30,144 nt of DNA from a virus. Under the pieces are notes generated by a model that was not told the origin of the DNA, did not search any database, and was given only the letters and a program-made list of their open reading frames with translations. The stretch lies in IMG/VR virus record IMGVR_UViG_3300035698_014807, positions 1 to 30,144 of that record. One strand, 5' to 3'. The position numbers and the translations under genes were made by a program. Positions 11,775-29,893 of the stretch are shown here, piece by piece (position 1 is the stretch's first letter; each line of letters starts with the position of its first letter).

Positions 11775-13928
11775 TTAATTATCTTCGCTTTTTTCAAGAT
11801 TAACGCTTTGCATTCTATGCGCAGTCTCCATCATCTCGACCTGAGTTCTGGAATTTTCAGCGGCTATACGCTCTTTTTTCAGCTCGTTATCAACTCCAGA
11901 ATCACGAACTTTTGATATAGTTTCGATAAAGTCGTTTTGTATTTTCTGCTCTTTTAACGCTTCATCCGCTTTATATCTTTGTGCGTCTACTTGCAGTCTG
12001 GCCATGTCAATTTCTGACTTACTCGGTCCCTGCGACTCTTTCATTGCTTTTTGAGCATCCGCTTGATACAACTGCGTAGTAGCTTGACCTTGAGCCATCT
12101 GCATCTGCATTGCTGCTTGCTGCACTTGCTGTTGCTGCTCTTGATCTTTCTCTTGTTTTTGTTTTTGCTCAGCTTCATACTCGACAGCTTTTTCTTTTAA
12201 GTCTTCAATTCCTCGAATTTCAATGTTATCAAGCAAGAACGGCATGCCTTTTGCGTTGATAAACTGCGCGAAATTCTCGCTTGCTTGCATCATTGATATG
12301 ACTGTTTTAAGCGCCATATCTTTTTGCATTGAAAAGTTAACGCCTGTTTCTACTTTTACAAGCATATCTTTAGAATCGTAGTTGAAATACAAGTGCCCAG
12401 GCTTATTAATTACTTCATAGCCGCGCTTGCCAGTTGGCAATAAAATAGGCAGTGAGCGAGGCGTCCTATAAAACTTAGGTAATAAATCAACATATATTTG
12501 CGCAACGCGATTAAGACCTTTCGTGTATCCAACGACGTATGGAACCGATGCAGTGTTTGACATCATTGCGCCGCTTTGTATCGCTGTTCCGGATAATTGA
12601 TTATTATTAATTCCCAATGCCGCATCATAAGAGCCCAGGATTGTTTGGCTCATCTCATCTGAAATCTTGAATGTATTTGTAACTTCCGGCGGAATCGGCG
12701 TTCTTTGAACCTCGCGCGGCGGTGGCAAGATAATCTCTGGAGACTTTTTATCTAAGAAGTGATTATAAACAAGCGTGTCAGCTTTCTGAACGTTTTCATA
12801 AGCGTCTTGATAACTTTCCGGAATCGACTCAAGCGCTACAACAAACTTATGCTGAACCATGTTTTCAAGCTCGGCTGCTAGCGTTTGCCCTGCAAAGTTT
12901 TTAAGTTTTTGAATACCTTTTGCATTGTAAACGTAGGGTCTAGTAACTTGTTGTTGAGTATCACCCACTGACATCATCACACTATTACCGTCAACAAAAA
13001 CAAGCGGCAACTTAGAGTAATTTGTCTTAGTGCAATCTAGCATTTCATTTTCACAAAAACGATAACGCACAATTTCTAAAGTATATGATGAGCGTTCATC
13101 AATAATAATTGGCGGCTGCTCTAGCCTTCCCATTTCTTCCCATTCTTCAATTGCTTTTAAATACTCATTTTTTGATACAGTCTGACCATTAGCTAACTTA
13201 ACAATCTTATTTTTCTTGTATTGTTTTTCGTAGTAATCACAAATTAAAACGATATCTTGCTTTTCGTTCTTATATGACCACCCAAATCCTGATAGCTCTT
13301 TTGAAAACTTCATTGATTCACATAAATTAGAACCGTACTCATTTTCGAATTCGTCTTTTGTTTTTGGGTATAGTTGAAAGCAAAACTTCCCATCACCCTT
13401 GTGCGATTCTCTAGCAAGCGGGTCGAAGCCGGTTAGTGTTGGGTCAAATACTCTGTCAACGTAAATGTTTTGATCGAATGACATCTCGTTTACGTAGTCT
13501 GTATATACTTCCATCACACTAAACCCGCCCGCTAACAAATCAGAATAGATATTGTATTGCAGTTTATCGTTCTCAGCGTCAAAAAATAACGCACGTAAAT
13601 GAGACTCAACAACCTCAAGCATTCTAGTGAACTCGGGCGTTAACATCGAAATTGGTAAGCCATCCGCAGCTCTAACCTGCATTCCCGGTTGCTGTTTTGC
13701 GAACTCTCCGCGTAATCTTGATATATACGCTTCTAAAATATTAAATTCTAAATCAGGTTTGCCTAGGCTCGCTAATACACCCCTATCCTCGTCAGTTAAA
13801 GTTTCATAAAATACAAAGCGAATATATTCTTTATATCTATCTATATTGCTTTTAAAGTACTCGTTCCACTGTTCAACATTTGCTTTTAAATCTGAAAGTC
13901 TATCTTTATGTTTTTTTGAAATTTCCAT
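11775..13928 (-). CDS. portal protein, P22 gp1-like
   Basis: A 717-residue protein; P22 portal is 725. After MEISKKHKDRLSDLKANVEQ it has a portal core: EFNILEAYISRLRGEFAKQQ, an ENDKLQYNIYSDLLAGGFSV helix region, and IYVDRVFDPTLTGFDP, the equivalent of the P22 IIWDSNSK stretch. The C-terminal 130 residues are Gln-rich helix (about 590-705, KQKQEKDQEQQQQVQQ onward), corresponding to the barrel of P22-type portals. The ATG overlaps the terminase stop by TAATG. The dodecameric ring is the DNA entry vertex, holds terminase during packaging and later holds the gp4-like adaptor. Confidence 0.9.
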   Translation of the reverse strand: MEISKKHKDRLSDLKANVEQWNEYFKSNIDRYKEYIRFVFYETLTDEDRGVLASLGKPDLEFNILEAYISRLRGEFAKQQPGMQVRAADGLPISMLTPEFTRMLEVVESHLRALFFDAENDKLQYNIYSDLLAGGFSVMEVYTDYVNEMSFDQNIYVDRVFDPTLTGFDPLARESHKGDGKFCFQLYPKTKDEFENEYGSNLCESMKFSKELSGFGWSYKNEKQDIVLICDYYEKQYKKNKIVKLANGQTVSKNEYLKAIEEWEEMGRLEQPPIIIDERSSYTLEIVRYRFCENEMLDCTKTNYSKLPLVFVDGNSVMMSVGDTQQQVTRPYVYNAKGIQKLKNFAGQTLAAELENMVQHKFVVALESIPESYQDAYENVQKADTLVYNHFLDKKSPEIILPPPREVQRTPIPPEVTNTFKISDEMSQTILGSYDAALGINNNQLSGTAIQSGAMMSNTASVPYVVGYTKGLNRVAQIYVDLLPKFYRTPRSLPILLPTGKRGYEVINKPGHLYFNYDSKDMLVKVETGVNFSMQKDMALKTVISMMQASENFAQFINAKGMPFLLDNIEIRGIEDLKEKAVEYEAEQKQKQEKDQEQQQQVQQAAMQMQMAQGQATTQLYQADAQKAMKESQGPSKSEIDMARLQVDAQRYKADEALKEQKIQNDFIETISKVRDSGVDNELKKERIAAENSRTQVEMMETAHRMQSVNLEKSEDN

Positions 13929-16315
13929 TAAAATCTTGCTCCGATTCTTCGATTCATTGATGCCGCTAGTCCTAACATTACCCGCTTGTCTTTCGTGTCA
14001 TCTTGTTCAATTTGGTATATTGTTTTATCAATAAGAGCCATTTTTATGGCATCTGCAGCTGTATCGCAGTTAGAAACAAGTGTGTTATTTGCGTAATATA
14101 CCCCAAACGGTTCAACTGTCAGATTGAACACCTCTTTTAAAAGCGCGTTTTTCTCGGGCTCTTTTTGCATATTCAATATTGTGGCACTCTCTGGTGCAAT
14201 ATACTGCGGAAGCAGATCTTGCCTCAAACTCATCTCCACAAACCCTGCATTTAAATGATCTAATTTTGTTGAGGCTTGTTTTGGCATTATCTTTATGCCA
14301 CTCTTTCCCTTCATCGCTTTTGTGCCAGGCTTTAGCCAGGTGATTAATTTTCTTAAGCTGCTCTTTATTCGCGTCACTACCAACCCATTTAGCCCTATCT
14401 TTCTCATGATATTTAATATGTTGGCTACGCGAAACACACTCAAGATTTTTATAGTCGTTATTAAAATAATTATGATCTTTATGATGAACAATAAAACCGT
14501 CCGGAACTTCTTGCCCGCTATAAAACTCAAAAACCGCGACATGCAACCCTTTAGCGCCTCTCCTTCCTTTGTTCGTTTTTGACTGACTAAGATAATAGCG
14601 TCTCGCCCCCATGAGTCGATACGAGACTCCATTGAACTCAATAATTTCTTGTACTTCCATTCAAATAACTCCGTAAAACAAAATGAACTTATTTTACATT
14701 CATCTGTCATAGTATCCAACGGATAAAAATTGCAATCAGAAAAAACCGGATGATTTCCCGTTCCCTCTAACCCTATATTTGATATTGTTTTTTTAAATCC
14801 GGTACTACCGCAAGCTGTGACCGACCCAATACCAAAAGGTGTTATTATTTTATGATTAATATTTATATCTTCTATGTTTACATGCCCGATTGTCGTAGAT
14901 ATCTTTGTTCCAGATACAAAACAGATATCATCATGTCTATGCGTGTTGTTGCTTGTTATTTTAGACATGTGATTAATGCACATATCTTTATGCTTTGCTG
15001 TATCTGTAAACGATAATTGCTTAGATGCGATAAATGGCTGTATTTGCAAAAATCTATCTGTCTTACTTCCGCTTGCTCTTGAGCGTTCAATGTTTCTTAT
15101 TTGAATACCCCTCACTTCGCTTTGCAATATACTGACAAGCGTAACACCCGTCGACTTTCTTTCAATAGCTGCGATTTTCGGCGCTACTTTATGACGCATG
15201 CACTCTTGATAAAAGTCTATAAACTCGTCTTTCAAGTCCTTTGGCTCAATCCTGCACTCGTGACAATCAAGCCAATGCAGCCCTAATTCACCTGTTTTTT
15301 TACCGAAACTTTCAATCTCATAGATACCCCAGAAACTAAAAACGGTCGCGTCATTATAGCTTTTTGCTGTCTCAGCTGTATCAGCTGTTATGAATGTGCT
15401 TAGAATTTCAGGCTCAAAATCAAGGCAAATAAACCAATCTTTTTTGAATAATCCGCCCCCCGCAGGCAAGGGGTCTTGCTGATATTGCGAGCTGAAAACA
15501 TACGGAGACTTATCTTGTAGCTTTTTTAAATATTCTTCATCGTGAACTTCAGGATACAGCGCGTTTCCTGCATCATCTATAGATTTTAATATTACTCTGC
15601 GCCACGGCTTTACGTCTTTACCGCTTAAAACGTAAGCTGCCAAATCATCCTCGTGAACTCTTTGCCCGATAAAAATAATTGGCACGTTCTTGCCGCGCGG
15701 CCTCTGCCTAATCGTTTCTTCGTAGTTTTTTATAACTCTTGCGCGAATAGTATCAGAGTGAGCTTCGTCCGGCTTATGCATATCATCCAAAACCACAGCA
15801 CCTGAAAACTCATCACTGTACGGTAATCCAGCATTACGTCCAGTTATTGCACCCGCTGAGCCGAATGCAGCAATCTCGCCCCCGGCCGTTGTTTTGAAAT
15901 AGTCTTTTGCTCTTGTTTCTCTCGATACACTAACGTCAAAAAGATAGCTAAACATGTCTGAACTAATAATCTGTTTAACAAAAGAAGTATTAGCAGCTGC
16001 TAGCGTCTTAGAATATGACACGTAAATAAAGTTAGATTTTGGATATTGTGCGATGCACCATGCAATCCACATACAAACGTGCAAAGTCTTACCCGATCCA
16101 GGTTGAACATTGATTAAAAGATTGCTTTTTGTGTGTTTCATTCTTGTTATTTGTGTGAGCTCTTTGCAGATAGTAACTTGATGAGACTCGCGACACGCAG
16201 GTTTAGACTCAATGTAATTAATTTGTTTTATATGTTCTAAGAAGAACTTATTAAAATAGCTCAAACTACCCTTTAATTTAGCGGCTTCTTCTTCTTTGTC
16301 GAAATCTATTTGCAC
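13928..16315 (-). CDS. terminase large subunit interrupted by an in-frame intein
   Basis: The frame starts at GTG 16315, seven bases after AAGGA, and encodes 795 residues. Walker A is QPGSGKT (71-77) and Walker B is VVLDDMH (174-180) for the packaging ATPase. The RNase H-like nuclease has D312 (ITADTA), E385 (IAAIERKS) and HDD (461-463). Directly after HDDI the sequence becomes an intein (465-749), and the normal terminase end resumes at C750 (CDTAADAIKMALIDKTIYQI). Removing the intein leaves 510 residues, a normal length, with the joined motif HDDICDTAADAI. The protein needs splicing to restore motif III of the nuclease. The small lipoprotein gene overlaps its start and the portal gene its stop. 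Confidence 0.9.
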   Translation of the reverse strand: MQIDFDKEEEAAKLKGSLSYFNKFFLEHIKQINYIESKPACRESHQVTICKELTQITRMKHTKSNLLINVQPGSGKTLHVCMWIAWCIAQYPKSNFIYVSYSKTLAAANTSFVKQIISSDMFSYLFDVSVSRETRAKDYFKTTAGGEIAAFGSAGAITGRNAGLPYSDEFSGAVVLDDMHKPDEAHSDTIRARVIKNYEETIRQRPRGKNVPIIFIGQRVHEDDLAAYVLSGKDVKPWRRVILKSIDDAGNALYPEVHDEEYLKKLQDKSPYVFSSQYQQDPLPAGGGLFKKDWFICLDFEPEILSTFITADTAETAKSYNDATVFSFWGIYEIESFGKKTGELGLHWLDCHECRIEPKDLKDEFIDFYQECMRHKVAPKIAAIERKSTGVTLVSILQSEVRGIQIRNIERSRASGSKTDRFLQIQPFIASKQLSFTDTAKHKDMCINHMSKITSNNTHRHDDICFVSGTKISTTIGHVNIEDININHKIITPFGIGSVTACGSTGFKKTISNIGLEGTGNHPVFSDCNFYPLDTMTDECKISSFCFTELFEWKYKKLLSSMESRIDSWGRDAIILVSQKRTKEGEALKGCMSRFLSFIAGKKFRTVLLFIIKIIIILITTIKILSVFRVANILNIMRKIGLNGLVVTRIKSSLRKLITWLKPGTKAMKGKSGIKIMPKQASTKLDHLNAGFVEMSLRQDLLPQYIAPESATILNMQKEPEKNALLKEVFNLTVEPFGVYYANNTLVSNCDTAADAIKMALIDKTIYQIEQDDTKDKRVMLGLAASMNRRIGARF
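14069..14923 (-). other. intein in the terminase nuclease motif III, 285 residues
   Basis: The intein begins with C1 (CFVSGTKISTTIGHVNIEDI, a clear Hint block A). It has the block B pattern T55-x-x-H58 in GLEGTGNHPVFS, and ends with blocks F and G (VFNLTVEPFGVYYANN, then TLVSN) before Cys +1. The usual penultimate His is Ser, a substitution found in a minority of working inteins. Between about residues 88 and 265 the frame is not an in-frame homing endonuclease. It is a low-complexity, partly very hydrophobic peptide (for example LLFIIKIIIILITTIKILSV) that is the shadow of an HNH gene read in the other frame. Splicing chemistry is inferred from the blocks. Confidence 0.85.
14112..14660 (-). 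CDS. HNH homing endonuclease nested out of frame inside the intein
   Basis: 182 residues. The start MEVQEIIEFNGVSYRLMGAR, GAKGLHVAVFEFYSG and the core VHHKDHNYFNNDYKNL with H59, H60, N67, N68 and H81/H85 are those of free-standing phage HNH_3 endonucleases. A zinc ribbon follows (CRVCGDEF ... YCTREC, about 138-160). It has its own GGAG eight bases before the ATG, and a TGA stop in its own frame directly before that ATG, so it is not a frameshift product of the terminase gene. It is shifted by -1 from the terminase/intein frame and lies wholly within it. Its last codons overlap intein block F. It probably cuts an intein-free terminase allele. Confidence 0.85.
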   Translation of the reverse strand: MEVQEIIEFNGVSYRLMGARRYYLSQSKTNKGRRGAKGLHVAVFEFYSGQEVPDGFIVHHKDHNYFNNDYKNLECVSRSQHIKYHEKDRAKWVGSDANKEQLKKINHLAKAWHKSDEGKEWHKDNAKTSLNKIRSFKCRVCGDEFEARSASAVYCTRECHNIEYAKRAREKRAFKRGVQSDS

Positions 16316-20261: not shown

Positions 20262-21295
20262 TAATTAGCCCATTCTGTGCATGTGTGTCGTTTAATGTAA
20301 GCTTCGTCTGCTTCTTTAGTTTTCTGTTCATCTGGACTAGCTCTTTTTGCTCGTAGATTCTTTACCCATTGCATTTCAAACCCTTTCCAGCCCGACTCAA
20401 TAGCATCTATCAAGGATTCAGCTGCCCCAAGGCCTTCATCAACGCAACTGTTTAACTTTCTGTTCAACCCTTCTATAACCCCGAGCGGTAGCGCTATTCC
20501 TCTCTCTATTCTTGGCTCAATCCACTTCTCAATAACCTCATCAGAGATATTATGTGGATTGTTTGCTTTAAATAAATCGATTTGTTTTTGTTTTTTTGTT
20601 TTTGTTTTTGTTTTCTTGGCAGGTTTCTGAGTTTTGGGGGTTGAGGATTCTTTGATAATAGCTGGGGCAGATGGCTCTGAATCGTAGAGTGAAAGTGTAT
20701 CGTTTTCAAAATCTTTTTTTATTTTTTTTTCAATAATCTCCGAAGGGGATTTTGAATCTATATATATATTTGTACTTCTTTTTACTTCTTTTACTTTAGG
20801 TTCCGGTCCTGACCGTAACGGGTATACGGTGGAGACCGTAACGGGTATACGGTCATTACCGTAACGGTTATCAGCTCTTGAGGTTGATAAATCATCAGAA
20901 TGTATTTCTTTTCCCTTTTTCTTTCCCTTCCCCCTTGACGGCTTCCCATCTGGATTTAAACAGTCAACTAGCTTTCTACCCATAAACTCATGACTTAAAA
21001 ATTGATAATGATTAACACCGCTTTTTTTATTTTGATAAGTTTTAATTAGTTTGATTTTTTTAAGTTTATCGATATTGTCTTGCACTGTTCGGGGGGAGCA
21101 CCCTAACTCTTCGCCTAGTTGGGCTGCCGATCTATGGACCGTTCCGTTTATAGTGCTCCACTGAGCGAGTCGACCGTAAAGAATTTTTAAAGAGAATGAT
21201 AACTCATTGTTAGGAATTTGAATCAACCATGATGGGATATAAGCTGCCGGGGCATGTGATTTTGGATTATATAAAATTTCTGTTTCTGTGCTCAT
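20261..21295 (-). CDS. replication initiator O-like, with origin inside the gene
   Basis: A 344-residue protein. Residues about 18-105 form a winged helix-turn-helix (LSFSLKILYGRLAQWSTING ... RSAAQLGEELGCSPRTVQDN ... IDKLKKIKLIKTY), as in lambda O type initiators. A low-complexity middle (about 120-245, with Lys-rich KPAKKTKTKTKK) is encoded by the region that holds three 23-base-spaced iterons and an A-rich tract. The end (WIEPRIERGIALPLGVIEGL ... ESGWKGFEMQWVKNLRAKR) is the C-terminal domain seen in phage initiators that contacts the loader. The P-like gene follows directly. The initiator likely binds the iterons within its own gene. Confidence 0.85.
   Translation of the reverse strand: MSTETEILYNPKSHAPAAYIPSWLIQIPNNELSFSLKILYGRLAQWSTINGTVHRSAAQLGEELGCSPRTVQDNIDKLKKIKLIKTYQNKKSGVNHYQFLSHEFMGRKLVDCLNPDGKPSRGKGKKKGKEIHSDDLSTSRADNRYGNDRIPVTVSTVYPLRSGPEPKVKEVKRSTNIYIDSKSPSEIIEKKIKKDFENDTLSLYDSEPSAPAIIKESSTPKTQKPAKKTKTKTKKQKQIDLFKANNPHNISDEVIEKWIEPRIERGIALPLGVIEGLNRKLNSCVDEGLGAAESLIDAIESGWKGFEMQWVKNLRAKRASPDEQKTKEADEAYIKRHTCTEWAN
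20690..20805. other. AT-rich tract of the putative origin (DNA-unwinding element)
   Basis: Adjoining the iterons, the initiator-coding strand becomes a purine-rich A tract with a TATATATAT stretch near 20759-20768 and long A runs near 20715-20732. Lambda ori has the same order on the coding strand: iterons first, then an A-rich segment that melts. Confidence 0.5.
20811..20871. repeat. three origin iterons inside the initiator gene
   Basis: GACCGTAACGGGTATACGGT occurs exactly at 20811-20830 and 20834-20853. A third, partial copy (ACCGTAACGG at 20858, then T-TAT) follows. Start-to-start distance is exactly 23 bases for both steps. Each unit is itself partly symmetric (ACCGT ... ACGGT), as iterons bound by dimeric initiators are. 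Location inside the O-like gene is as in lambda. Confidence 0.8.
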
Positions 21296-21361: not shown

Positions 21362-21433
21362 CATGTTATGTGGGGCACATCAGGGATTAGATCCCCGCAT
21401 CAGATTTTATAGGTCTGATGCGGGTTTGTTTTT
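21362..21433 (+). ncRNA. OOP-like short antisense RNA, about 72 nt
   Basis: Bounded by a consensus promoter on the left and a strong intrinsic terminator on the right, with no ribosome site. Lambda OOP RNA (77 nt) also starts next to gene O, runs opposite to it, and ends before or within the upstream gene. Here the RNA ends 19 bases short of the upstream gene's stop codon, so it would pair with the leader between that gene and O. A small inner hairpin (GGGAT TAG ATCCC) precedes the terminator. The exact start is inferred from the -10 box. Confidence 0.6.
21394..21433 (+). terminator. strong Rho-independent terminator, plus strand
   Basis: CCCGCATCAGA (21394-21404) pairs perfectly with TCTGATGCGGG (21414-21424), 11 pairs with a nine-base loop, followed by TTTGTTTTT. 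It is specific to the plus strand; no T run follows on the minus strand. Confidence 0.85.
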
Positions 21434-21871: not shown

Positions 21872-22243
21872 CTAAAGACTAGGGTCGACTGCTAGACCAG
21901 CTTTAACAAGCTCTTGAAACTGCTTATCAATATTTTCAATTTCTTTATTAATTACATCTTTAACTTCTTCAGTTGTTAGGTCTGACTTGCTTGGTGGGGT
22001 GGCGTCTTTTACTTCTTTCCAAATTCGATAAAAATACTCCATGTATTGCTCGTTTATTTCTGAATTTTTAGGAACTTTTTTATTATTAATAAAGTCACCA
22101 ATCGACATATTGGAACTTAAACACGGCTTTATTTTATCCAAAGGAGTTGGATACGTTAATCGGCAAGCGATAATAATCATTTCAGGAGTGTCGATTTCTA
22201 CATTTTCTAAATCAATCAGTATCTGAAAGCAAAGGTGTTCCAT
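21872..22243 (-). CDS. unknown protein, paralog of the next gene; start disrupted
   Basis: 123 residues are open from ATG 22243. MEHLCFQILIDLE, IIIACRLTYPTPLDKI and SIGDFINNKKVPKNSEINEQ match the adjacent upstream gene's SILIDL, IAVACRLMYPTPIDDI and TIGQLIDSKPKTKTFKISPE. The ATG at 22243 has no ribosome site. The expected start, ATG 22273 with AAGG eight bases upstream, is in the same frame but an amber TAG comes eight codons later, followed by AAT and this ATG. Translation may restart after the amber. The family is unknown to me. Confidence 0.55.
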   Translation of the reverse strand: MEHLCFQILIDLENVEIDTPEMIIIACRLTYPTPLDKIKPCLSSNMSIGDFINNKKVPKNSEINEQYMEYFYRIWKEVKDATPPSKSDLTTEEVKDVINKEIENIDKQFQELVKAGLAVDPSL

Positions 22244-22362: not shown

Positions 22363-22872
22363 TTAAATAATTTCTTTACTGTCAATCAAATCCTTTATCA
22401 GTAAGTGCGCATCTTTAGTCAAAGATTCTAAAGCGCTGTTTTTAGCTCTTATTATTTTCTGTATTAGTTGTGACCTGCTATTAAGTATTGCCAATGTGTT
22501 TTTGTTATTAATTAAATTTTGGCAATCATTATCATGACAATAAGAAATCAAATAATCATCAAGCCTTAACGAACGACACAGAGGCATATGGTCTATTTTC
22601 GGTTTTTGAGGCCCTAATTTCCAATTTTTAGCAAAAAAACTTAAGTATTCAGGACTTATTTTAAATGTTTTAGTCTTGGGCTTGCTGTCAATTAGTTGAC
22701 CTATAGTTTTATCAGAATATAAAAGCTTTGGGATATCATCTATGGGGGTCGGGTACATTAATCTGCATGCTACTGCAATGATTTGATCAACACCAACTGC
22801 CATATGCAAATCTATTAAAATAGAAACCGCTTCATCTTCTAACTTCTCTTTTAAGTTTTGTTCAGTATTCAT
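22363..22872 (-). CDS. unknown protein, first gene of the replication unit
   Basis: A 169-residue protein, MNTEQNLKEKLEDEAVSILI, with AAGGA upstream of the ATG. The N-terminal 75 residues are paralogous to the following gene (see CRLMYPTPIDDI). The rest, absent from the paralog, includes CRSLRLDDYLISYCHDNDCQ with several Cys/His (a possible metal site, only suggestive) and a helical C-terminus. No family is recognised. Its place first in the operon suggests an early regulatory or replication-linked role. Confidence 0.6.
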   Translation of the reverse strand: MNTEQNLKEKLEDEAVSILIDLHMAVGVDQIIAVACRLMYPTPIDDIPKLLYSDKTIGQLIDSKPKTKTFKISPEYLSFFAKNWKLGPQKPKIDHMPLCRSLRLDDYLISYCHDNDCQNLINNKNTLAILNSRSQLIQKIIRAKNSALESLTKDAHLLIKDLIDSKEII

Positions 22873-22929
22873 TTTCTTTCCTTTTATCGTTACGTTGCAT
22901 AAAAAGATGCACCTGCCTAAGGATTAGAC

Positions 22930-22958
22930 TTGCATGATAAGAAAGAAAGAGAGATAAT
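22930..22958 (+). promoter_or_regulatory. sigma70-type promoter of the structured RNA
   Basis: TTGCAT (22930-22935), exact 17-base purine-rich spacer, GATAAT (22953-22958). A start near 22965 would place the first RNA helix at the very 5' end. Confidence 0.6.
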
Positions 22959-22964
22959 ATGCTC

Positions 22965-23165
22965 ACTTTCATGACTTAGAATCATGTCGGTCACACCCTT
23001 AGATGCTTGTACATCGTAAGGTTTAAATCTTGATTACATTTTCAGTCCGTCTAGGACTAGTGGCATTATCACAATGCTGGTAATCAAGAGAGTCAGCCGT
23101 AAGTTAGAGCTTGCGGCAAGACGCCAAGGTACTACATACTATATCTTCGATCAACACCTCGATTA
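22965..23165 (+). ncRNA. putative structured RNA with a three-way junction
   Basis: No gene fits this stretch, but it holds a run of exact helices. P1: CATGA/TCATG (22970-22986). P2: CCTTAGATG/CATC-G-TAAGG, nine pairs with one bulge (22997-23021). P3: a perfect ten-pair helix TCTTGATTAC/GTAATCAAGA (23028-23037 with 23080-23089) enclosing two further perfect hairpins, AGTCC/GGACT (23044-23058) and GCATT/AATGC (23063-23077). P4: GCCGTAAG/CTTGCGGC, eight pairs with one G-U (23096-23117). The plus strand is favoured by the promoter just upstream; the 3' end is uncertain. It could be a free RNA or an antitermination leader of the early operon. Confidence 0.5.
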
Positions 23166-23166
23166 A
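23138..23166 (-). promoter_or_regulatory. weak candidate minus-strand promoter facing the structured RNA
   Basis: On the minus strand: TTAATC (23166-23161), 17-base spacer, TATAGT (23143-23138). It could read the 22872 operon, and its leader would then be the antisense of the structured RNA. Confidence 0.3.
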
Positions 23167-23206
23167 AATTAATAACTTTCTTACTTATGTATTAAAAAAA
23201 TAAACA

Positions 23207-23215
23207 TGGTACAAT
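23207..23215 (+). promoter_or_regulatory. extended -10 promoter candidate for the recombination operon
   Basis: TGGTACAAT: TG, one base, TACAAT (23210-23215). The -35 region is poor (AT-rich). It would give a leader of about 190 bases before the first gene. Confidence 0.35.
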
Positions 23216-23285
23216 TACATTAGATTGTTTTTTTTGTTTTGATTCGCCTCAATTTCTTTTTAACAATCTGTGATAAAAAAAGATT

Positions 23286-23370
23286 ACACATATATTAAAT
23301 TATAAAATGGGCTGTCAGCATAATATTTACTCTGCCAAGATTTTTATTAATGCTCATCTAGCCCATGTGT
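23286..23370 (+). other. structured leader upstream of the RecE-like gene
   Basis: ATGGGCT (23307-23313) pairs with AGCCCAT (23360-23366). Inside, AGCAT (23317-23321) pairs with ATGCT (23350-23354), and outside ACAC (23286-23289) can pair with GTGT (23367-23370). The element ends 25 bases before the AAAGGA ribosome site. It may control translation or transcription elongation. Confidence 0.4.
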
Positions 23371-23408
23371 GATTTAATTCTTAGCTTATTATTTAAAGGA
23401 TTTATTAA

Positions 23409-24257
23409 ATGATTAAGCCGGGACTATACAAAGATATAAGTAACTACACTTATCACGCATCATCTGCGCTATCTCGAAGCGACATAATGAAATTCATAAA
23501 GTCACCCTATCATTTCAACAATAGACATCTAACCCCTTTCAAAGAAACTGAAGCAATGAACCTGGGCTCTCTTGTGCACTCTTTAATTCTAGAACCTCAT
23601 CTTGTCGAAAAAGAATATTTCTTTTACAAAAAAATAGATAAAAGAACTAAGAAAGGAAAGATTGACTACAACGACATGCTTGCAAGTAGTAAAGGAATGG
23701 TATCAATCAATGAAGAGACAGCAAAAACAGCTTACGAGATGCGTACGGCAGTAAAAAGCAATTCGTACGCTTGCGAGCTGCTTGAAGGGTGCTTAATTGA
23801 ACCTTCAATTTTCTGGCGCAATGACAAATCAGGCCTAGAACTTAAATCGAGACCCGACGCGATGAAAGACGACGGCGACAACAAGGTCATGGTTGTTGAC
23901 TTAAAGACAACTAAAGACGCAAGCCAACACAAGTTTCAGCGCTCATGCATCGATTTTGGGTATTTTCATCAAGCAGCAACAGCAAGCCTTGCACTTGAAA
24001 GCACGGGAAAAGAGATGACGCATTTTATGATTATTGCAGTCGAGAACACCGCCCCTTTCGCTACAGCTATCTATGAAATATCAAGCGATACTATCAAAAA
24101 AGTTTGTAATGAGCTTAAAGGTATTTACTTAGAGATAAGTAATTGTAAAAAAAATGACGCTTGGCCCTCCTACGGATTCAACACACTATCAATTCCAAAT
24201 TACATGCTCACTAAACAAAACAAAGAAAGCGAGAAAGATGCAGCTATCAACTTCTAA
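23409..24257 (+). CDS. RecE-like PD-(D/E)XK exonuclease
   Basis: A 282-residue protein with AAAGGA eight bases upstream. It shows the exonuclease VIII-like pattern: YHASSALSRSDIMKFIKSPY, NLGSLVHSLILEP with H57, KSRPDAM with D150, and VVDLKTT with D164 and K166, then GYFHQAA (184-190). The H, D, D-x-K set is the catalytic core of the RecE/Exo VIII-type domain. These enzymes chew 5' ends of double-stranded DNA to expose 3' single strands. A Sak4-like annealing protein and an SSB are encoded downstream, so the operon is a complete phage recombination set. Confidence 0.8.
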   Translation: MIKPGLYKDISNYTYHASSALSRSDIMKFIKSPYHFNNRHLTPFKETEAMNLGSLVHSLILEPHLVEKEYFFYKKIDKRTKKGKIDYNDMLASSKGMVSINEETAKTAYEMRTAVKSNSYACELLEGCLIEPSIFWRNDKSGLELKSRPDAMKDDGDNKVMVVDLKTTKDASQHKFQRSCIDFGYFHQAATASLALESTGKEMTHFMIIAVENTAPFATAIYEISSDTIKKVCNELKGIYLEISNCKKNDAWPSYGFNTLSIPNYMLTKQNKESEKDAAINF

Positions 24258-26048: not shown

Positions 26049-26333
26049 ATGGATGTTAAAGAGAAAGCAAACGACTTTTTAGAATTAATTAAACAAACTA
26101 AAGAGCGTCTTGACGTTTTATCAGCCTTGTCATTAGATTTAAAAGATAAAATTGATAATGAAAGTATCGATGAAGAGCAGCGCTTGCATGTGTGCCGTTT
26201 TTCGGTTGCTGCGACCGACTTAGTTAGCGTTTTAATTAACTTTAATAACAAATATCCGAAAGTAGAACTTTGCTCTGGGGAAGTTGAAGAAGATAAAGAG
26301 GGCTCTAGAGATGACGATAAACCAATTACTTAA
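26049..26333 (+). CDS. unknown 94-residue acidic helical protein
   Basis: MDVKEKANDFLELIKQTKER follows AAAGGAG. The first 45 residues are amphipathic helix, then an acidic tail (EEDKEGSRDDDKPIT). The end overlaps the Cro-like gene's start by 23 bases, so translation is likely linked. No family is recognised. Confidence 0.6.
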   Translation: MDVKEKANDFLELIKQTKERLDVLSALSLDLKDKIDNESIDEEQRLHVCRFSVAATDLVSVLINFNNKYPKVELCSGEVEEDKEGSRDDDKPIT

Positions 26334-26523
26334 GTATTATAAAACGCAGTCTGCCGCTTGTGCGGCGCTGCATGTTTCCAGAGCGTGCTTTACTTATTGG
26401 GGAAAGATTGGGTATATACCCTACGTCCGACAATGTAAGTATGAGAAGCTTACGGACGGAAAGTTAAAAGCAAGCCACAAGGAAATTAATGTCGCTATAA
26501 GAAAACGTTTTGGCTCTGATTAG
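26311..26523 (+). CDS. Cro-like repressor
   Basis: A 70-residue protein; start ATG 26311 (MTINQLLKYYKTQSAACAAL) after GAGG. A longer frame from a TTG at 26284 is less likely. The helix-turn-helix is clear: TQSAACAALHVSRACFTYWG (12-31), then YIPYVRQCKYEKLTDGKLKA. This is the pattern of P22-type and lambdoid Cro proteins (FGTQRAVAKALGISDAAVSQW; IP; IE-LT-G-L). It would bind operators as a small dimer. It is read in the recombination operon, not beside a CI gene as in lambda. Possible targets include the inverted repeat at 18052-18071. Confidence 0.7.
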   Translation: MTINQLLKYYKTQSAACAALHVSRACFTYWGKIGYIPYVRQCKYEKLTDGKLKASHKEINVAIRKRFGSD

Positions 26524-29543: not shown

Positions 29544-29618
29544 CTACTGCATAAAGCCTCCGCGCCCTATAATTTCTATAGCGCGCCAAGCCTCGTTTAT
29601 TAAAAGCTGCGTGTTCAT
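29544..29618 (-). CDS. possible 24-residue peptide
   Basis: Five bases after the stop of the preceding gene, ATG 29618 opens MNTQLLINEAWRAIEIIGRG and ends GFMQ at TAG. A GGA eight bases upstream is a weak ribosome site. Tight spacing to the upstream gene supports translation; its length allows chance. Confidence 0.3.
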   Translation of the reverse strand: MNTQLLINEAWRAIEIIGRGGFMQ

Positions 29619-29623
29619 GCAAG

Positions 29624-29893
29624 TTATCCGGCGGTATTTAAGACTGTGTACTTTTCAACAACCTCGTCTGTCCACACAGATTGCAAATAAGCAACTTCTT
29701 TAGCTATATCAATATCACCTACAAAGTTAGAAATATCTTCATAGCGTCCGGGCATAAAGCAGCGTGTATTTTTTTGCTTTCGCATAACCTCGACACCCCC
29801 CTCATATACAACACAATCTATCCGAACTTGCACGGTCATATTTTTTTTACTTACATTGAACTCGGAAAGCTCACATATTAATTCAGTTGTCAT
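29624..29893 (-). CDS. hypothetical 89-residue protein
   Basis: MTTELICELSEFNVSKKNMT follows AAGGA. A beta-rich first half (VQVRIDCVVYEGGVEVMRKQ) and a helical second half (DIAKEVAYLQSVWTDEVVEK). It directly follows the fibre gene at the right edge, so a virion or fibre-assembly role is possible. No family is recognised. Confidence 0.55.
   Translation of the reverse strand: MTTELICELSEFNVSKKNMTVQVRIDCVVYEGGVEVMRKQKNTRCFMPGRYEDISNFVGDIDIAKEVAYLQSVWTDEVVEKYTVLNTAG

Follow-up and report, generated by a model that had tools for sequence, protein, structure and literature searches.

To our knowledge, few systems are known in which phage early genes are controlled by RNA alone, namely put and P4. 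The immunity region of satellite phage P4, which gives the CI RNA, lies before the replication operon and comprises a leader with a terminator-like signal that releases free RNA. The nut sites of phage lambda occupy an early leader position and combine a boxA (CGCTCTTA / TGCTCTTTAACA) with a short boxB hairpin. In phage HK022, putL and putR are structured RNAs that start the divergent early operons, put being about 70 nt long with two stem-loops (PMC9378689).

The locus described here comes from IMG/VR virus record IMGVR_UViG_3300035698_014807, a single sequence from an uncultured phage. The window, i.e. the whole stretch of DNA that was analysed, covers positions 1-30,144 of that record (30,144 bases), and no near relatives of the record as a whole were found. 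A 536-base gap separates its leftward and rightward early operons, and the folded element sits in this gap, flanked by the following genes:

P22-like structural genes, minus strand
Leftward operon, minus strand: tandem paralogues of 169 aa and 123 aa, a 130-aa protein, and lambda O-like and P-like replication proteins
22363..22872, minus strand: first leftward gene, 169 aa, of unknown function, upstream of the O-like and P-like replication genes
Rightward operon, plus strand: exonuclease VIII-like protein, Sak4-like annealing protein and Cro-like protein
23409..24257, plus strand: exonuclease VIII-like gene, which heads the rightward recombination operon, with the Sak4-like annealing protein next

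The adjacent early tandem paralogues (21872-22243 and 22363-22872, minus strand) are 38% identical over 76 aa and have a YPTP motif in common; database searches found relatives of neither. Relatives of the terminase and of Sak4 are plentiful (identity up to 60% and up to 59%, respectively), and their early regions have a gene arrangement different from that of the present phage; no copy of the element was detected in any of them. The genome collection yielded a single relative of the terminase, a contig that was binned as Saccharibacteria in a metagenome and may be contamination. The terminase large subunit ORF itself (13928-16315, minus strand) carries an apparent intein with a weak Hint-like start at residue 464 (E 0.045) and the last residues ..NTLVSNC; the DNA that encodes the intein also contains, in a different frame, an HNH endonuclease ORF (14112-14660, minus strand; HNH_3, E 7e-13). 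An earlier, sequence-only reading of this DNA had seen no CI gene in the region. Neither CI nor integrase is present among the proteins scanned, a subset of the window's ORFs, and no N-like gene was recognised, but a regulator does exist: a P22-Cro-like protein is encoded at 26284-26520 (plus strand), late in the rightward recombination operon and far from the element. In relatives, e.g. L077, a P22-Cro-like regulator sits at the divergent gap.

The sequence-only reading had placed the structure at 22965-23165, and all six helices that it reported are present, covering only part of the element. While 22965-23125 is indeed well folded, the true start lies further left, where 22906-22953 pairs with 22962-23015; the addition of 65 bases leftwards gives an element of 226 bases, 22900-23125. 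Its parts and immediate surroundings are:

22906..23015, minus strand: long imperfect hairpin formed by these two arms, apex 22954-22961, 36-37 pairs; from the fold and also detected as an inverted repeat
22901..22905, minus strand: U5 tract immediately 3' of the long hairpin, a terminator-like 3' end; from the sequence
23028..23089, strand unassigned: three-way junction, a perfect 10-bp stem (23028-23037/23080-23089) around hairpins 23044-23058 and 23062-23078; pair probabilities 0.96-0.98
23092..23122, strand unassigned: hairpin GCCGTAAGT/GCTTGCGGC (23096-23117) plus outer GTC/GAC pairs; from the fold
22970..23021, plus strand: two small hairpins (22970-22986 and 22997-23021), into which the long hairpin's right arm can fold instead
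22876..22885, minus strand: Shine-Dalgarno AAAAGGAAAG of the first leftward gene; from the sequence
22930..22958, plus strand: promoter-like TTGCAT-N17-GATAAT, 8/12 to consensus, within the left arm of the long hairpin
23138..23166, minus strand: weak promoter-like TTAATC-N17-TATAGT, below background score, predicted start about 23131
23294..23378, plus strand: second long hairpin, ATTAAATTATA..ATGGGCTG..AGCAT, before the exonuclease gene (23409); z -2.55, pair probabilities 0.77-0.93

This structured non-coding element between the divergent early operons is real and unusually well folded. Its predicted fold reaches -71.9 kcal/mol (z -5.56) on the plus strand and -72.2 kcal/mol (z -5.49) on the minus strand, the MFE structure coincides with the centroid on both, and on either strand 0 of 200 shuffles fold as well. 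When the whole window is scanned in 226-nt tiles, 22900-23125 ranks first (minus) and third (plus) among 402, a rank somewhat flattered by the fact that this tile was picked by eye and its boundaries were set after looking; the windows around it are also near the top, and independent 150-nt tiles across the element rank 5, 8 and 9 of 800. For the shorter stretch 22965-23125 as plus-strand RNA the energy is -51.1 kcal/mol (z -4.3 to -4.6), MFE and centroid are the same, and the ensemble is far better defined than that of shuffles (diversity 0.064 vs 0.234 per nt, p 0.005). The second-strongest folding stretch of the window, 29551-29776 on the minus strand (z about -5), lies mostly inside an ORF (29624-29893).

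Chance folding, or decayed functionless sequence, would be consistent with a single sequence for which no relatives were found. The earlier argument that such stems are unlikely by chance holds for the perfect ten-pair stem (p 0.003 against shuffles; an equally long stem occurs in 6 of 300 windows of the phage), which encloses two hairpins as had been described, but not for the short hairpins taken alone, which are no rarer than in shuffles (p about 0.1). Against chance stand the tile ranks, with neighbouring windows again high, the shuffles on both strands and the unusually well-defined ensemble, and we regard this explanation as decidedly improbable.

As the sequence-only reading had stated, the region has no coding frame: 44% of shuffles contain an open frame at least as long as the longest one here (48 codons, 23020-23163), whose codon score is at the 1.7th percentile of the phage's genes, and no frame in the element has a protein-family match. 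A basic 30-aa ORF from the ATG at 23074, reminiscent of the arginine-rich peptides of the N type, was rejected on its weak codon use, a Shine-Dalgarno that is too far away and a lack of relatives. Two viral contigs carry a tRNA gene whose 3' end matches the 16-mer AGTCCGTCTAGGACTA; since ARAGORN finds no tRNA and the upstream tRNA half is absent, a tRNA origin was dropped and the match was taken as chance. Nor is the element a replication origin, because a lambda-type origin lies inside the O-like gene, where three 23-nt direct repeats (iterons; 20804-20872) are followed by an AT-rich tract.

No named family had been recognised at first reading, and this agrees with a scan against Rfam 15 (4227 families), which gave no match at the gathering cutoff in the whole window and, with the limit relaxed to E = 10, nothing but chance matches, all of which lie outside the element. 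The earlier proposal of an HK022-type put RNA is ruled out as family membership. We located putL and putR in HK022, confirmed the annotation in related records and aligned nine put sequences, taking two stem-loops and the conserved GAACGGC...GTCGG and GGCGGGTTCAGGATGAACGGCAATG blocks as criteria, into a covariance model (R2). Run with filters off, R2 matches nothing in 22900-23165 up to E = 10; the HK639 put, a positive control that is itself in the model alignment, matched at 8.7e-22. A second copy in the other early operon, which put would also lead one to expect, was not found, identical runs elsewhere in the window reaching 11 nt at most. Like putL and putR, the element would be a structured RNA starting divergent early phage operons, but it measures about 226 nt and consists of a three-way junction and a long hairpin. 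With the lambda nut sites it shares an early leader position; it is far larger in structure and there is no boxA in 22900-23165. The element is neither put nor nut nor origin.

Two further comparisons concern the way in which a leader may end. Like the P4 CI RNA, the element precedes a replication operon and, in the reading that we favour, would have a terminator-like end releasing free RNA; it differs in that it has no known sequence match, no complementary target was found in the window outside 22860-23240 and no integrase is present among the scanned proteins. Bacterial leaders of the attenuator or riboswitch type likewise combine a structured domain with a subsequent terminator-like hairpin and U tract and with alternative pairing of the Shine-Dalgarno, but the terminator-like hairpin of the element is imperfect and 110 nt long, and there is no Rfam match.

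The description of the locus as an undescribed structured RNA between divergent early operons therefore stands as regards structure, lack of coding and lack of an Rfam match, and that the element is an RNA is likely but no more than that, since this single sequence folds equally on both strands. The same symmetry would suit a DNA-level element, i.e. inverted repeats bound by phage proteins as operators or an enhancer, or a single-strand or cruciform structure: 64 of the 69 pairs are Watson-Crick on both strands, the single-stranded DNA fold is likewise strong (z -5.1), and there are five copies of TTAGA within about 330 bases (22900-23235; 0.9 expected in shuffles, p 0.0005 for a motif chosen after looking), two of the copies being hairpin loops. 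However, the palindrome half-sites are mutually unrelated, unlike operator sets, the origin lies elsewhere, with its iterons and AT-rich tract in gene O, and a nested three-way junction with a 110-nt long-range hairpin is typical of RNA and not of operators. We hold a DNA-level role to be rather unlikely.

The wobble evidence on strand is neutral, since besides the 64 of 69 shared Watson-Crick pairs there are five strand-only G-U pairs on the plus and four on the minus strand. The asymmetries of the helices are opposed: the long hairpin folds more stably on the minus strand (z -5.28, -39.0 to -40.4 kcal/mol, MFE equal to the centroid) than on the plus strand (z -3.80, -32.2 kcal/mol), whereas hairpin 23096-23117, with two G-U pairs, is stronger as plus-strand RNA (-16.4 vs -11.1). 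The main asymmetry lies at the left end. On the minus strand, UUUUU comes directly after the seven-pair base (GAUGUAC/GUGCAUC) of the long hairpin—TTTTT being found at 0.4% of minus-strand positions—and the leftward gene starts 29 bases on, with 20-30 bases from the U tract to the Shine-Dalgarno and ATG of the leftward operon. An alternative hairpin at 22877-22906 pairs the Shine-Dalgarno with the U tract. The nearest plus-strand gene downstream of the element is 284 bases off. A standard terminator scan makes no call at the long hairpin and U tract because the hairpin is too long. Elsewhere in the window, a strong plus-strand terminator-like hairpin of 14 pairs with a T tail (21394-21424) lies between two leftward genes and opposes them.

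No promoter above background was found on either strand at the element. The TTGCAT-N17-GATAAT that had been proposed as a plus-strand promoter is present in the sequence, but as a promoter it scores 5.6, against a median of 7.4 for the best scores in 540-nt stretches elsewhere, and it lies inside the long hairpin. A start at about 23131, as predicted from TTAATC-N17-TATAGT on the minus strand, would yield a leftward RNA whose limits coincide exactly with those of the fold. Neither candidate counts as evidence by itself. The original assignment to the plus strand thus finds no support, the terminator-like U tract being on the minus strand. Because the plus-strand candidate is below background and inside a hairpin, while the minus-strand hairpin runs into UUUUU near a Shine-Dalgarno and start codon, we consider the strand of the regulatory leader to be most likely the leftward one.

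A plus-strand leader of the rightward exonuclease and recombination operon is nevertheless a serious rival. It would start near 22965 and join a five-helix fold to the second hairpin (23294-23378) in a 440-nt leader that acts by put-type or other antitermination or by translation control. The first two hairpins of the sequence-only reading (22970-22986 and 22997-23021) belong to this arrangement: they are present, but as structures that the long hairpin's right arm adopts instead, and only in a plus-strand RNA starting near 22965. Such a leader would gain from the strong fold of 22965-23125, with its coinciding MFE and centroid, from the stronger plus-strand form of hairpin 23096-23117, from the absence of a terminator ahead of the exonuclease gene and, especially, from the better folding of 22965-23440 as a whole on the plus strand (z -4.49 vs -3.17 on the minus strand). 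Set against this, its promoter scores below background and belongs to the long hairpin's left arm, which would leave that hairpin's pairing meaningless, and the RNA would have neither similarity to put nor a boxA at its start; on balance we judge it unlikely. The second hairpin coincides exactly with a 21-aa ORF. Between it and the element, 23166-23300 is AT-rich (22-23% GC), a natural site for predicted divergent promoters, each of which would feed a structured leader.

The reading that we favour, plausible if short of probable, is a structured leader RNA of roughly 230 nt that is transcribed leftwards on the minus strand, from about 23131 to 22900, and acts in cis as an attenuator of the replication operon. 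It is supported because this is the best-folding place of the window (z -5.3 to -5.6 for 22900-23125), the long hairpin is stronger on the minus strand, a U tract follows, the leftward gene is a short distance away and an alternative hairpin reaches the Shine-Dalgarno. During transcription hairpin 23096-23117 would fold first, then the three-way junction and then the long hairpin, which together with the five U would form a terminator-like end ahead of the Shine-Dalgarno and start codon of the O/P-type replication operon. Some polymerases would halt at the U tract and let a free RNA go, and others would continue into the operon. Alternatively, the U tract may pair with the Shine-Dalgarno and restrain translation.

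A free RNA could also be the functional product, as a trans-acting phage small RNA from either strand that serves as an immunity factor of the P4 kind or regulates host or phage mRNAs. The compact and bounded fold, the terminator-like end on the minus strand and the lack of a CI found near the divergent operons are consistent with this. However, the longest complementarity of the element to the rest of the window (outside 22860-23240) is 12 nt, where shuffles reach 15, no sRNA family was recognised and the RNA would have no strong promoter of its own, which leaves a trans-acting role quite improbable. Least probable of our proposals is that phage RNAs of a new class stand in for the CI repressor or the N antiterminator at the divergent early control region, and that alternative folds of such a three-domain RNA decide on transcription of the replication operon. 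Should the element prove to be another RNA-only example, structurally larger and at the same genome place, RNA would seem to be a frequent means of control at this site in phages that lack a recognisable CI or N, hidden in stretches that are blank to gene finders. As a single sequence without relatives at present, it is a lead and not a family.

Relatives were sought at several levels. Both blastn in phages and plasmids and three DNA-pattern scans of viral contigs gave chance matches only, and nothing came of a profile of the tandem paralogues with flanking proteins in viral contigs or of the 169-aa flanking protein in genome contigs. Single-sequence models (R1/R3) detected no copy over about 80 loci and 37 records, and about 90 related phage loci in all gave no homologue; since such models are insensitive, these negatives exclude close relatives only. 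Model matches below E 0.02 at two loci, L087 and L100, are spurious and stem from tiny searches: the L100 match skips every helix and the L087 match breaks many pairs. One terminase relative, L028, carries a strongly folded, multi-hairpin non-coding stretch at 14156-14315 (z about -5) that is unrelated in sequence to the element and lies ahead of an ORF at 14329 that may encode a capsid scaffold.
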